This document shows, in pieces, positions 29,877-44,911 of a DNA stretch of 64,000 nucleotides. The stretch lies in contig NZ_NQYC01000001.1 in assembly GCF_003600835.1 (NCBI RefSeq), forward strand, positions 3,743,001 to 3,807,000, read 5' to 3'. Under the pieces are notes generated by a model. It made no database searches. It had not been told where the DNA came from and saw only the letters and a list, made by a program, of their open reading frames with translations. The translations under genes were made by a program, and so were the position numbers. This stretch comes from Bacillus sp. PK3_68. GTDB taxonomy: Bacteria > Bacillota > Bacilli > Bacillales > Domibacillaceae. Position 1 is the stretch's first letter, and each line of letters opens with the position of its first letter.

Positions 29877-29895
29877 AAGGTATACGATATACAAT
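29877..29895 (+). promoter_or_regulatory. GntR-type operator, site 1 (autoregulatory)
   Basis: AAGGTATACGATATACAAT: two overlapping copies of the GTATAC/ATATAC half element immediately before the GntR ribosome site. Confidence 0.55.
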
Positions 29896-29916
29896 AAAGG
29901 GAAGAGGGATGGACAA

Positions 29917-30603
29917 TTGGCAAACAATTGGTCAGAGGAGAATTTGCTCTCTATACGGGAAAGAGCATATTTGCACTTAAAAGACTTAATATTGGACGGT
30001 GAGCTTAAGACGGGAGATCGTCTAGTAGAGAGGGAGCTGGCTGAAAAACTAAATATTAGTCGCACACCGATCCGTGAAGCCTTATTCAGATTAGAGTCAC
30101 AGGGTTTTGTAAAAACAGTGCCAAGAAAAGGTGTTATTGTGGCGGATATTTCAGATAAAGAGATTATTGAAGTATTCACTATCCTTTCTTCTTTGGAGGT
30201 CTTGGCTGCGAAGTTAGCTGTTCAAAAGCTTGACGATGAAACGAAGCAAAAGTTTGCTCACTATATAGAAGAGGTAGAAACACAGCTAAAAGATGAGAAA
30301 GAATCAGATTTTTCGGACTTGCATACCGAATTAAATTACTTGTTATACAGTTCTGCAAAAAATGCCAAACTACATGAAATGCTAAGCAGCTTAACCGATT
30401 ACATAAGGGCTTTTGCAAAAACAGGATTTAAAAAGTCGGGAAGACCCAGACAATCTATGGAAGAACACCTTAATATTATGAAGGCAATCATTAATCAGGA
30501 AGCTGAAATGGCAGAGTATTTAACCAAAATCCACATTGAAAATTCAAAAAAAGCTTATATAGAGGCAGTCAATCAAGACAAAAAAGCTAAAGAAAAACTC
30601 TAA
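29917..30603 (+). CDS. GntR-family regulator, FCD subfamily (paralog 1)
   Basis: 228 residues: winged HTH at about 8-75 (GDRLVERELAEKLNISRTPI then REALFRLESQGFV) and an all-helical FCD ligand domain (about 85-220). The TTG start after AAGGGAAGAGGG is supported by alignment with the paralog at 41465, which begins at the same residue. FCD regulators usually repress catabolic genes until a small acid or metabolite binds. Operator 29877 suggests self-control; similar sites precede the units to 42.2 kb. Confidence 0.88.
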   Translation: MANNWSEENLLSIRERAYLHLKDLILDGELKTGDRLVERELAEKLNISRTPIREALFRLESQGFVKTVPRKGVIVADISDKEIIEVFTILSSLEVLAAKLAVQKLDDETKQKFAHYIEEVETQLKDEKESDFSDLHTELNYLLYSSAKNAKLHEMLSSLTDYIRAFAKTGFKKSGRPRQSMEEHLNIMKAIINQEAEMAEYLTKIHIENSKKAYIEAVNQDKKAKEKL

Positions 30604-30608
30604 AAGAT

Positions 30609-30640
30609 CAGGAAGGACATAGAAGTCCTTCTTTTTCATT
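30609..30640 (+). terminator. intrinsic terminator after GntR gene
   Basis: GAAGGAC / GTCCTTC hairpin, then TTTTTC. Confidence 0.75.
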
Positions 30641-30843
30641 CATTTGAAATGAGGAGAAGCTACATCATTCCTATTATATAGCCAACGTATGAAGACTATC
30701 AGACTTGCAAACGGAGGAACAGGAATAGTTTGTTGCAATTGTCTAAATTTTTAAAATCATTTGACTAAAAACTATCTTTAGTGATATATTGATTTTAATC
30801 TTTTTGACTTGTTACTAGAGATACTAAAAGAAGGAGGGATAAG

Positions 30844-30957
30844 ATGAAGGGATTTGGATAGTAGACAGAGAATAAAAAGCCGATTGAGGGAATTCTTGTC
30901 CATCAGCCTGTTGGAGATTAGGCTGAAAAATGGCAAGAAATAATTTTTCGGAGATGT
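30844..30957 (+). pseudogene. short relic with good ribosome site but early stops
   Basis: AAGGAGGGATAAG precedes ATG 30844, but the frame stops after five codons (TAG TAG). The same frame then reads ENKKPIEGILVHQPVGD, a stop, and AEKWQEIIF. This looks like the start of a decayed gene. Part of a 589-base gene-free stretch (30604-31192) that otherwise holds the operator and cre-like site listed next. Confidence 0.35.
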
Positions 30958-30984
30958 TGGTATACAATGCACAGTATACAAAAG
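30956..30984 (+). promoter_or_regulatory. GntR-type operator, site 2 (two copies)
   Basis: TTGGTATACAAT at 30958-30969 and AGTATACAAAA at 30973-30983, upstream of the carrier at 31193. Confidence 0.6.
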
Positions 30985-31027
30985 ATGAAAAACAAGATTA
31001 AAGAGAGAATACTATCTCTGTAAAAAA

Positions 31028-42251: not shown

Positions 42252-42602
42252 ATGCCTAACATTCATTTTATTAATAGCCAAAAAACATTGGAAGTTCCGG
42301 AACACTCTAATATTTTAAGAATGTCTCTCCGCTATGATGGGGAATTGCCAAATCGCTGCGGCGGCGGAATTTGTGGTACCTGTGTATTTAAGACAGAAGA
42401 AGGGGCCGAATTTCTCGATAACGTAAAAATACAGGAAAGAAGAAAATTAGGAGAAGAGTGGCTGGAAAAAGGCTATCGATTAGGCTGCCAGACATTTGTG
42501 ACTACAGGTGATATTGCTGTTTCCTGGGATGAGGAAGTCACTCAACAAGTGAAAAAGAGAAAACCAGATAAACTGAAAAAAGAAGTATCCACGACTAAAT
42601 AA
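42252..42602 (+). CDS. [2Fe-2S] ferredoxin, second copy
   Basis: 116 residues. Cluster loop C-x4-C-x2-C in RCGGGICGTCVFKT (about 36-49) and last cysteine in LGCQTF (about 78-83). Lysine-rich C-terminus. ATG with AGAGGAGGAAG site. Diverged from the ferredoxin at 35949 in its loop composition (GGGI against GMGR), so they may serve different steps. Confidence 0.85.
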   Translation: MPNIHFINSQKTLEVPEHSNILRMSLRYDGELPNRCGGGICGTCVFKTEEGAEFLDNVKIQERRKLGEEWLEKGYRLGCQTFVTTGDIAVSWDEEVTQQVKKRKPDKLKKEVSTTK

Positions 42603-42664
42603 ATGCTTTTATCCAATTACTTCTTGAGAATCCCTGACAAAATCAATTTATAAGAGGTGACAGC

Positions 42665-42868
42665 ATGTGGGTCTGCAATAGTCATATGAAAGAAGCGTTA
42701 ACATTATTAGAAGCACCTCATATCAGTAAAACTCCTTATCAAATTAAATGTTCTCTTTGCAATGATCGCGCAGTGGCCAAAATCTATTATGCACATGAGC
42801 CTCTTAGCTATAAACGCAAGCAAACACTCTATTACTTAACAAAAAGTGAGCCAAAACAATCTGTTTAA
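42665..42868 (+). CDS. small CxxH/CxxC protein
   Basis: 67 residues with VCNSHMKEAL (C-x2-H) near the start and IKCSLCNDRA (C-x2-C) at about 28-37, a pattern found in a small Bacillus CxxH/CxxC family and able to bind zinc. AGAGGTGACAGC site before ATG. It probably follows the ferredoxin on the same transcript. Function unknown. Confidence 0.65.
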   Translation: MWVCNSHMKEALTLLEAPHISKTPYQIKCSLCNDRAVAKIYYAHEPLSYKRKQTLYYLTKSEPKQSV

Positions 42869-43117
42869 AATAATGTCCCTGTTAAAGATAAACGTTTTTT
42901 AACAGATCATTGGAGCGAAAGGCGGCCATTGCCCCTATAGGAGCGCACGTGACACAGAGGATGATGGATTGCTGCAGGGAAAATCAACAATTAAGTAGAA
43001 CAGAGTCAACATACTAATTAGGCAGCGATGAACGTTCATTCGAAAAGTTTTTTTAAAGTATAAACACTAATAAGAAGTAAACAGTCATTCAAATCATTAT
43101 TATAGGAGGATCTTTCG

Positions 43118-44134
43118 GTGAACGATCACCAGAACAAATTATATGATATCACGGTAATTGGTGGAGGGCCTGCTGGACTTTTTACTGCTTTCTATGGAGG
43201 AATGCGCCAGTCTTCCGTTAAAATCATTGACAGCATGCCTCAATTAGGCGGACAATTAGCCGCACTCTATCCCGAGAAATTTATTTATGATGTAGCAGGA
43301 TTTCCGAAAATTCGTGCTCAAGAGCTTATTGATGCTTTAAAGGAGCAAGCTCTCTTATTCAATCCGGCTGTTGCACTTGAAGAGTGTGCGCTACATGTTG
43401 AAAAACAAGTGGATGGCTTTAAAATTACAACGGATAAAGCCATCCACTTCTCAAAAACAATTATTATTACAGGCGGAGCAGGAGCTTTTGAACCGAGACG
43501 CTTGCCGCATGAATCAGCTGGTTTATATGAATCGAAAAATCTTCATTATTTTATTAACGATCTTCATCAGTTTGCTGATAAGAAGGTTGTCATTAATGGC
43601 GGAGGAGACTCGGCTGTAGACTGGGCATTAATGATTGAACCGATTGCCAGAGAAGTAACTCTTATTCATCGGCGAGATAAGTTTCGTGCTCATGAACATA
43701 GCGTCAATCAATTGAAACAATCGAGTGTCAATATTTTAACTCCTTATCAGATTAAAGAGTTAAGAGGAAAGGGAAAATTGGAAAAAATTATTGTTGCTAA
43801 TAACCAAACATCTGAAGAAAGACTAATAGAATTAGATGATTTAATCGTAAACTTTGGCTTTATATCAAGTCTGGGAGAAATAAAGAACTGGGGGCTTGAT
43901 ATTCAAAAGGGGAGTATCGTTGTGAATTCCAAAATGGAAACAAATATTCCGGGGATTTATGCAGCAGGAGATATATGCACATACCCTGGCAAAGTAAAGC
44001 TGATAGCAGTAGGTTTTGGTGAGGCTCCGACGGCAGTTAATAATGCAAAGGCTTATATGGATCCACAGGCAAGAGTGCAGCCGCTTCACAGCACATCCAT
44101 AGGGCTGCCTGAAGCAGTCCCGATAGGAAAATAG
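43118..44134 (+). CDS. ferredoxin-NADP+ reductase, thioredoxin-reductase-like (YumC type)
   Basis: 338 residues. FAD motif [17 protein letters not shown] (12-28), NADP motif [13 protein letters not shown] (about 155-167), late [14 protein letters not shown]. No redox-active CxxC, which distinguishes it from thioredoxin reductase and fits the YumC-type FNR. GTG start after ATAGGAGG. It moves electrons from NADPH to ferredoxins. Next to fer and two [2Fe-2S] ferredoxins it makes a full electron chain for the diiron oxidase. Confidence 0.9.
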
Positions 44135-44155
44135 ATAAAGGGAAGGAGATTAAGG

Positions 44156-44404
44156 GTGGCCAAATATACAATTGTGGATAGAGAAACTTGTATTGCATGC
44201 GGATCTTGTGGGGCAGAAGCACCAGAAATTTTTGATTATGATGAAGAAGGAATCTCCTACGTCTTGTTAGACGATAATCAAGGAACAACTCCCATACCAG
44301 ATAATTTAACCGAAGGGCTTGAAGATGCATTTGATGGCTGTCCAACGGAGTCTATTCGGATTTCTGATGCATCGTTCGACGGGGATCCAAACAAGTTCGA
44401 GTAA
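44156..44404 (+). CDS. fer: [4Fe-4S] ferredoxin (Bacillus Fer type)
   Basis: 82 residues, the exact Fer layout: C-x2-C-x2-C in [14 protein letters not shown] (11-24) and the fourth Cys in [10 protein letters not shown] near 61. Strongly acidic, ending DPNKFE as in Bacillus Fer. GTG start, 21 bases after the FNR stop, so co-transcribed. Likely a pathway-dedicated paralog rather than the housekeeping copy. Confidence 0.9.
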
Positions 44405-44428
44405 TGAAAGCAGGAGGGCGGAATTGTC

Positions 44429-44911
44429 ATGATGAACAAAGGAGTAAAAAGTAACATTGAAAAAAGATTGCAAGAATTAAATATTCAACTGCCTGATGCG
44501 CCATCTAATCCACACCCATTTATTCCTGGTGTAATTTCAGGAAATACGGTTATATTGTCAGGACAAACCCCAAAGGTAGATGGCCGTCAAAAATATGTTG
44601 GGGTGGTCGGTACGTCAGGCATCAGCATGGAGGAGGCGCAGGATGGGGCAAGGATATGCGTAGTGAATTTACTAGCTTCCTTAAAGGAAATTCTCGGGAA
44701 CTTGAATAGAGTGACAAAAGTACTTAAAGTAAATGGATATGTGGCGGCAGACAGCCAATTTAAAGATCATCCCCTAGTGATTAATGCAGCCTCTGACTTG
44801 CTAAACGATATTTTCGGAGAAGAAAATCAGCATGCGCGTATAGCCGTTGGAATGTCCTCATTGCCTGGAGGAGCGCCTGTAGAAGTAGAGATGATAGTAG
44901 AATTTGAATAA
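44429..44911 (+). CDS. RidA family protein (second copy)
   Basis: 160 residues (ATG 44429 or 44432; CAGGAGGGCGG site). Signature ISGNTVILSGQTPK and HARIAVGMSSLPGGAPVEVEM, with the arginine (HARIAVG) that binds the substrate carboxylate in RidA, so enamine/imine hydrolysis is plausible here, unlike the 7.3-kb relative. Directly after fer. Confidence 0.85.
   Translation: MMNKGVKSNIEKRLQELNIQLPDAPSNPHPFIPGVISGNTVILSGQTPKVDGRQKYVGVVGTSGISMEEAQDGARICVVNLLASLKEILGNLNRVTKVLKVNGYVAADSQFKDHPLVINAASDLLNDIFGEENQHARIAVGMSSLPGGAPVEVEMIVEFE

Follow-up and report, generated by a model that had tools for sequence, protein, structure and literature searches.

A putative HDO-centered catabolic regulon with its own ferredoxins and a conserved GTATAC operator in Bacillus sp. 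PK3_68 and other bacteria

The genome of Bacillus sp. PK3_68 (4.83 Mb, Bacillaceae-like) carries a gene of the HDO diiron oxidase family among genes for two [2Fe-2S] ferredoxins, an amidohydrolase, an aldehyde dehydrogenase (ALDH) and two GntR regulators, in a 64,000-nucleotide stretch of contig NZ_NQYC01000001.1 (positions 3,743,001 to 3,807,000; hereafter, the window). What would an HDO do in such company? Judging from the sequences, the locus is likely a catabolic regulon, in large part self-contained, for a nitrogen compound, in which the HDO would be the terminal oxygenase of a ferredoxin-fed multicomponent system. The module is conserved in Firmicutes, Proteobacteria and Actinomycetes, and a GTATAC operator is found upstream of its genes in the first two.

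The HDO scores 120.9 bits against PF14518 (cut-off 28.9). Its six metal ligands, already recognized in a sequence-only reading of the window and here assigned by alignment to CADD (E87, H94, E150, H181, D185 and H188), are invariant in all 95 orthologues (>60% identity, window included); a bound dimetal cofactor and O2 activation, as in the HDO superfamily, are predicted. The nearest solved relatives are p-aminobenzoate synthases (3.4e-23). In CADD, Tyr27 is sacrificed and Lys152 acts as donor, according to the accessible part of PMC11965152; these positions align with Thr, Ser or Ala and with Gln, respectively, in 95/95 orthologues. With the six ligands kept and these two residues replaced, the protein is an HDO by sequence, yet not a p-aminobenzoate synthase, an identity also ruled out by its score against the CADD model TIGR04305 (91.3 bits, cut-off 200).

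A tree of 45 HDO rows shows short branches for the orthologues and two distant HDOs far outside. Single groups are formed by 21 Bacillaceae-side rows (support 92/96), 13 proteobacterial rows and six actinomycete rows (100/99 each); three other Firmicutes fall into no single group. The distribution is patchy: HDO was found in three of 24 genomes of the host family (the window's own counted) and, with the center genome counted each time, in 10 of 399 genomes of the order sample of a Cupriavidus genome, five of 398 of its phylum sample and five of 394 of an actinomycete class sample. Three of the five phylum-sample genomes were already in the order sample, and one holds a 46% relative. A 46%-identical HDO in locus L128 (G954) adjoins a GntR gene and a Rieske-like protein (recognized by eye), possibly a sister pathway.

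Gene neighborhoods were compared in the best 80 of 293 loci, which are mostly from close Bacillaceae, so that the synteny counts are not independent of each other; 10 kb were fetched on each side, and 55 of the 69 main-group Firmicute loci have at least 9 kb on both. Neighborhoods that fall apart in relatives were one of two outcomes that would have refuted the sequence-only reading, and the opposite was observed: seven partners of HDO are present in 55/55 full loci. Genes in the window were assigned from the open reading frame (ORF) list with Pfam and NCBIfam cut-offs, and these checks bore out the genes, coordinates and families listed earlier. The HDO and its seven constant partners are:

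31190..32644, plus strand: membrane transporter, core gene of the module, without Pfam family, 38-85% identity in 17 relatives
35360..35704, minus strand: UNK35360, a family for which no Pfam or PDB relative was found and which tracks HDO
35949..36281, plus strand: Fd1, [2Fe-2S] ferredoxin (Fer2 in Pfam)
36351..37133, plus strand: CRE, creatininase-fold amidohydrolase (PF02633)
37328..38056, plus strand: HDO, diiron oxidase family (PF14518, ligands and tree as above)
38240..39688, plus strand: ALDH (nearest NCBIfam models, below cut-off)
39714..40193, plus strand: HbpS/GlcG-like small protein (Pfam)
42252..42602, plus strand: Fd2, [2Fe-2S] ferredoxin (Fer2)

The 69 loci show 22 strings of gene order and content. 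Many of these differ just in genes that are absent or lie past the end of the locus sequence, and several are true rearrangements with membership kept, such as L017, L061, L067, L068, L072 and L074. The 13 proteobacterial loci all contain Fd1, Fd2 and HbpS; ALDH, the transporter and a BenC-like reductase are present in 11 and an ornithine-cyclodeaminase-like (OCD-like) protein in eight. All six actinomycete loci show two Rieske ferredoxins, a reductase that we take from its domains to be BphA4-like, a gamma-glutamyltransferase-like (GGT-like) protein, ALDH and HbpS, with a Rid protein in five and the transporter in four. The 69 Firmicute loci showed none of these proteobacterial or actinomycete replacement families close to HDO. 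Across phyla, then, the electron chain, the amide hydrolase and the imine-acting enzyme change family, HDO, ALDH and HbpS remain, and the roles are kept; an amide hydrolase, an imine-acting enzyme and an ALDH, proposed earlier from the window, thus recur in loci of several phyla.

The remaining genes of the region, with their frequency in the 55 full Firmicute loci, are:

29917..30603, plus strand: GntR1, FadR-subfamily regulator with GntR and FCD domains (Pfam), 34 of 55
32755..33450, plus strand: peripheral NAD(P)-binding oxidoreductase, F420_oxidored-like (Pfam/NCBIfam), 28 of 55
33523..34904, minus strand: transporter that we take to be DUF401-like, in two ORFs (34503-34904 and 33523-34506), 54 of 55
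35145..35231, plus strand: unannotated microprotein of 28 amino acids, divergent from the DUF401-like transporter, found by pattern search
40301..41424, plus strand: ChrB and ChrA, paired chromate-family transporter halves, each 50 of 55
41471..42148, plus strand: GntR2, paralogue of GntR1, 50 of 55
43118..44404, plus strand: FNR (thioredoxin-reductase-like) and small ferredoxin Fer, 8 and 7 of 55, no operator
44429..44911, plus strand: Rid-family protein, RidA (PF14588 and PF01042), 26 of 55
45501..47671, plus strand: Nif3-like protein and Gate-domain transporter, 5 and 6 of 55

The last two genes are joined to the module in few lineages, and the Gate-domain gene lies near the edge of the fetched flank. 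The DUF401-like transporter of the window consists of overlapping ORFs of 133 and 327 amino acids, and relatives have a single ORF of 457-527 amino acids; the two-ORF state may be a split gene, a frameshift or a sequencing error. An Rfam scan of 28500-48500 gave no match.

GTATAC occurs at 19 sites in the window, 12 of them within 29.7-48 kb. Ten of these 12 are intergenic and stand upstream of GntR1, the transporter, the DUF401-like gene, UNK35360 and Fd1, CRE, HDO and Fd2:

29880..29885: one site, upstream of GntR1
30960..30979: two sites (30960, 30974), upstream of the transporter
35003..35080: two sites (35003, 35075), between the DUF401-like transporter and the microprotein
35782..35787: one site, between UNK35360 and Fd1
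36304..36309: one site, upstream of CRE
37192..37273: two sites (37192, 37268), upstream of HDO
42222..42227: one site, upstream of Fd2

The motif shows the same placement in relatives. In the 69 Firmicute loci its density is 4.31 per kb upstream of cluster genes versus 0.27 per kb elsewhere, and five of six control hexamers are flat or lower upstream (CATATG, 0.37 versus 0.36 per kb). The 13 proteobacterial loci have 43 of their 64 sites upstream of genes (3.08 versus 0.08 per kb); of the 15 sites in the remaining three Firmicute loci, 10 are upstream. A site is found within 300 bp upstream of HDO in 72/72 Firmicute and 12/13 proteobacterial loci, where 100 dinucleotide shuffles give means of 4.56 and 0.44, respectively. 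Upstream of CRE, the operator is present in 63 of the 69 Firmicute loci, and upstream of the 32755 oxidoreductase in 5/32. The six actinomycete loci show zero GTATAC upstream of genes, and five of them carry a PucR-type regulator. That many units of the window are preceded by this operator, as the sequence-only reading had it, holds for the ten intergenic sites and fails for FNR, Fer and RidA, which have no upstream GTATAC there; in relatives it was found upstream of these three in 0/11, 1/10 and 3/32 cases.

The paired GntR control read from the window corresponds to two FadR-type GntR regulators. The FadR-subfamily palindrome has TKGT/ACMA boxes, as given in the accessible text of PMC4494728; the extended GTATAC site fits them, and GntR1 has both the GntR helix-turn-helix and FCD domains. 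We infer from these features that a GntR protein would bind GTATAC. The ExuR/UxuR regulons share the TKGT/ACMA palindrome (same text) and the GntR and FCD domains; unlike them, the present sites have two bases between GT and AC instead of typically three, and other target genes.

Searched across the window's genome, KGTATACMAA occurs at 58 places, 10 of which belong to the cluster, and its reversed control at 36; 16 of the 48 places outside (14 regions) were inspected and gave no gene set worth adding. The proteobacterial pattern GTATACNRTRTNCM covers 23 of the 43 upstream proteobacterial sites and gave 23 hits in nine HDO-bearing proteobacterial genomes versus five for its reversed control: 17 at core HDO-locus genes, partly by construction as the pattern was drawn from sites at those loci, four at amidase-like genes and two elsewhere, with none in G203. 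The two other hits lie between mdh-like and sucC-like genes in L143 (G1089), probably by chance, and on contig C90 of G186.

How the HDO would receive electrons is suggested by its neighbors. Fd1 and Fd2 are Fer2 ferredoxins with the C-x4-C-x2-C-xn-C motif, which confirms the two [2Fe-2S] ferredoxins first read from the window. Genes for ferredoxin and reductase lie beside the oxygenase gene in 11 of the 13 proteobacterial and all six actinomycete loci; the proteobacterial reductase is nearest to BenC/MmoC models and the actinomycete ferredoxins to HcaC, all below NCBIfam cut-offs. Electrons would pass from the reductase to the ferredoxins and on to HDO, and in the window FNR and the small ferredoxin at 43118..44404 are a possible supply. 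Rieske dioxygenases and soluble diiron monooxygenases likewise combine an oxygenase with a ferredoxin and an NAD(P)H reductase; unlike in these systems, the terminal oxygenase here would be an HDO, neither Rieske nor ferritin-like. A parallel within the fold is MboA-MboB of mangotoxin biosynthesis, an HDO whose dedicated redox partner combines NAD(P)H, flavin and [2Fe-2S]. There, according to the accessible part of PMC13185094, the second oxidation by an HDO can depend on a dedicated [2Fe-2S] flavin reductase, and the pair is maybe the first of its kind to be characterized. Both systems place an HDO gene beside a dedicated redox-partner gene; the Mbo system is biosynthetic and peptide-modifying, whereas the present one has separate ferredoxins, varying reductases and catabolic-looking genes.

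UNK35360 follows HDO closely. In the host family it is present in the same three of 24 genomes that have HDO and in none of the 21 others. Among 36 further genomes, a profile of UNK35360 picked out all but one (G208) of the 11 proteobacteria that have a close HDO, and none of one genome with a 46% HDO, six actinomycetes and 18 genomes without HDO. All ten proteobacterial hits lie at most 6 kb from HDO, and the gene stands between Fd1 and Fd2 in eight of the 13 proteobacterial loci. In Pfam and PDB, UNK35360 and the transporter had only weak, inconsistent matches, the best (0.00043) being one transporter member against a DUF. The cationic microprotein of 28 codons, between the DUF401-like transporter and UNK35360, was found in 36 of the 73 sequences searched, namely those of the window and of 72 Firmicute loci, and GTATAC, which formed no part of the search pattern, lies within 130 bp upstream in 36/36. 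Its pN/pS is 0.23 (29 unique sequences among 32 of equal length), a value lowered, and a conservation partly selected for, by a pattern shaped on the first sequences found.

Which bonds would the other enzymes act on? CRE had been read as a creatininase-fold amidohydrolase, and the fold stands (PF02633). In creatininase the Glu of the HYEN motif is a metal ligand; it aligns with Gly in the HGGN of CRE, and this change and the score against TIGR04448 (105.3 bits, cut-off 235) exclude creatininase itself. In genomes of the Burkholderiales sample, four amidase-like genes (L144, L145, L146 and L149) lie 20-90 bp downstream of a GTATACNRTRTNCM hit: at the margin of the HDO locus in G024 and G342, about 13 kb away from it in G353 and on another contig in G186. 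They were recognized by resemblance to the amidase of the related locus L081, which is above the cut-offs for PF01425 and NCBIfam PRK06170 and has indoleacetamide hydrolase among its weaker relatives (176.6 bits of 532). These sites and those at CRE place an amide hydrolase under the operator in Firmicutes and Proteobacteria, from unrelated families.

Operator sites beside genes absent from the window led to an aspartate-dehydrogenase-like gene, present in 53 of 72 Firmicute loci with an operator within 300 bp upstream in 51 of the 53. The nearest solved protein is L-aspartate dehydrogenase, and the protein of L010 passes the cut-offs of two NCBIfam subfamilies and narrowly misses that of TIGR03855. 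The window locus does not contain this gene; the genome has a 36% homologue at another place, a same-genus genome has the gene in place, and it appears to have been lost in the window strain, whose version of the pathway may therefore be incomplete or use another enzyme. Relatives with the same gene order often carry it at the position of the gap 30603-31190, which holds two operators. RidA, above the cut-offs for PF14588 and PF01042, is a possible imine hydrolase. The 32755 oxidoreductase had been called P5C-reductase-like; at 18.1 bits against TIGR00112 (ProC, cut-off 196.75) this call is withdrawn and P5C reductase ruled out. The nearest models to ALDH are alpha-ketoglutaric semialdehyde dehydrogenase and 2,5-dioxovalerate dehydrogenase, both below cut-off.

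The same enzymes would allow the HDO to make an amide rather than to act beside one. Lysine and tryptophan 2-monooxygenases convert an amino acid to its primary amide by oxidative decarboxylation, and if the HDO did likewise the hydrolase would then free the acid, with all else as in the catabolic reading. The operator upstream of the amidase, the indoleacetamide hydrolase among its weaker relatives and the aspartate dehydrogenase and OCD families, which act on amino acids, agree with this, as do the known HDO substrates, mostly fatty or amino acids in the accessible part of PMC13108848. However, three unrelated hydrolase families suggest varied amides, not one, and ALDH and the Rid protein are left without a clear role, which makes an amide-forming HDO unlikely.

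Hydroxylation of an N-heterocycle is a further option, one that we regard as improbable: the hydrolase would open the resulting lactam, and an imine and an aldehyde would pass to Rid or a dehydrogenase and to ALDH, as in Rut pyrimidine degradation. That system likewise joins an oxygenase, an amidohydrolase, a Rid protein and an aldehyde step in one regulon, and differs in that oxygenase, hydrolase and electron supply here come from other families. Creatininase-fold enzymes open cyclic amides, and the reductases and Rieske ferredoxins resemble ring-oxidizing systems, below cut-off. Against it, GGT-like proteins and a carboxylesterase beside one locus suit linear substrates better, and the accessible part of PMC13108848 names no ring hydroxylation as an HDO reaction.

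A biosynthetic or cofactor cluster, for p-aminobenzoate or another small molecule, would agree with what other studied HDOs do. The March 2026 review (PMC13108848), in its accessible part, counts about a dozen functionally validated HDOs and presents them as enzymes that produce natural products, fuels and cofactors; the string 'catabol' appears a single time in the review, concerning heme. One HDO is linked to desiccation tolerance, and studied HDOs make small molecules, according to the accessible text of PMC13232832. CADD and NePabS, the p-aminobenzoate synthases, are the nearest solved sequences and share fold family and ligand set; in contrast to them, the window group has neither the sacrificed Tyr nor the donor Lys (95/95), scores low on the CADD model and has adjoining ferredoxin genes. 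Furthermore, the combination of transporters with an ALDH, an amide hydrolase and control by GntR suggests catabolism, and no peptide ligase or synthase was recognized among 31 recurring clusters of 24 loci, most of them not named by search. A biosynthetic role is thus quite unlikely.

Several observations weigh against the catabolic regulon. Besides the dependence among the Bacillaceae counts, five Burkholderiales loci are Cupriavidus from the same best-80 list, and flanking genes were a poor synteny control because three of five lie outside the fetched 10 kb, the two within reach being ICMT (0/55) and YyaC (30/55). TATATA is about twofold higher upstream in the 69 Firmicute loci, so that base composition explains a small part of the GTATAC enrichment; among nine proteobacterial controls, only TATATA (5 versus 2 sites) and GTGCAC (0.50 versus 0.27 per kb) are higher upstream. 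In Firmicutes, an FNR homologue is near HDO in only eight of the 55 loci, and a BenC-like or BphA4-like reductase in none of the 69. RidA was found in 0/14 Burkholderiales loci, and an amidase not for every one of them. L121 (G208) has HDO, ferredoxins and HbpS and shows no operator, GntR, ALDH, transporter, reductase or UNK35360, and L118 (G203) has no nearby ALDH, transporter or reductase. Finally, actinomycete ALDHs are merely 40-49% identical, and the OCD-like and GGT-like proteins are below every NCBIfam cut-off shown. Most loci being from related Bacillaceae, with a weak flanking control and YyaC kept in more than half, old synteny without common function could be invoked, but the module genes have stayed together where the locus is rearranged and are found again, differently ordered, in other phyla, and the operator is kept upstream of HDO in two phyla, so this explanation is very improbable.

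The transporter, ALDH, hydrolase and patchy distribution fit catabolism. In the catabolic regulon, the transporter would import a nitrogen compound, and a creatininase-fold, amidase-signature or GGT-like hydrolase would cut an amide bond, either in the substrate or in an intermediate. A reductase, the locus's own in Proteobacteria and Actinomycetes and probably a shared one in most Firmicutes, and two dedicated ferredoxins would pass NAD(P)H electrons to HDO for O2 activation over many turnovers. HDO would oxidize the carbon beside nitrogen, or cleave a bond there; an aspartate-dehydrogenase-like, OCD-like or Rid protein would take the imine or amino-acid product, and ALDH would convert the aldehyde to an acid. 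A GntR repressor on GTATAC would open the gene set when substrate or intermediate is present. All of this chemistry, including its direction, the imine and aldehyde steps and their order, is deduced from enzyme families. Of the co-regulated oxidative breakdown first proposed for the window, co-occurrence, several gene orders and an operator across two phyla speak for the proposal, and the placing of FNR, Fer and RidA under the operator finds no support in this lineage. More tentatively, this may be a new O2-dependent catabolic pathway common to three phyla, in which HDO is the terminal oxygenase of a multicomponent system, UNK35360 is a new subunit that goes with plant-type ferredoxins and serves in coupling or gating, the microprotein tunes transport, and unrelated families have replaced one another as electron chain, as amide hydrolase and as imine enzyme with the chemistry kept.

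Literature searches, with limited coverage of subscription journals, found no described pathway of such composition. Since Firmicutes and Proteobacteria have this operator in common, the regulator offers a direct route to the substrate, and genetics would be possible in laboratory strains, one of them Cupriavidus metallidurans CH34, which carries HDO. A catabolic HDO with its own ferredoxins, if true, would widen the roles of this fold and would show how HDOs gain electrons for repeated turnover.

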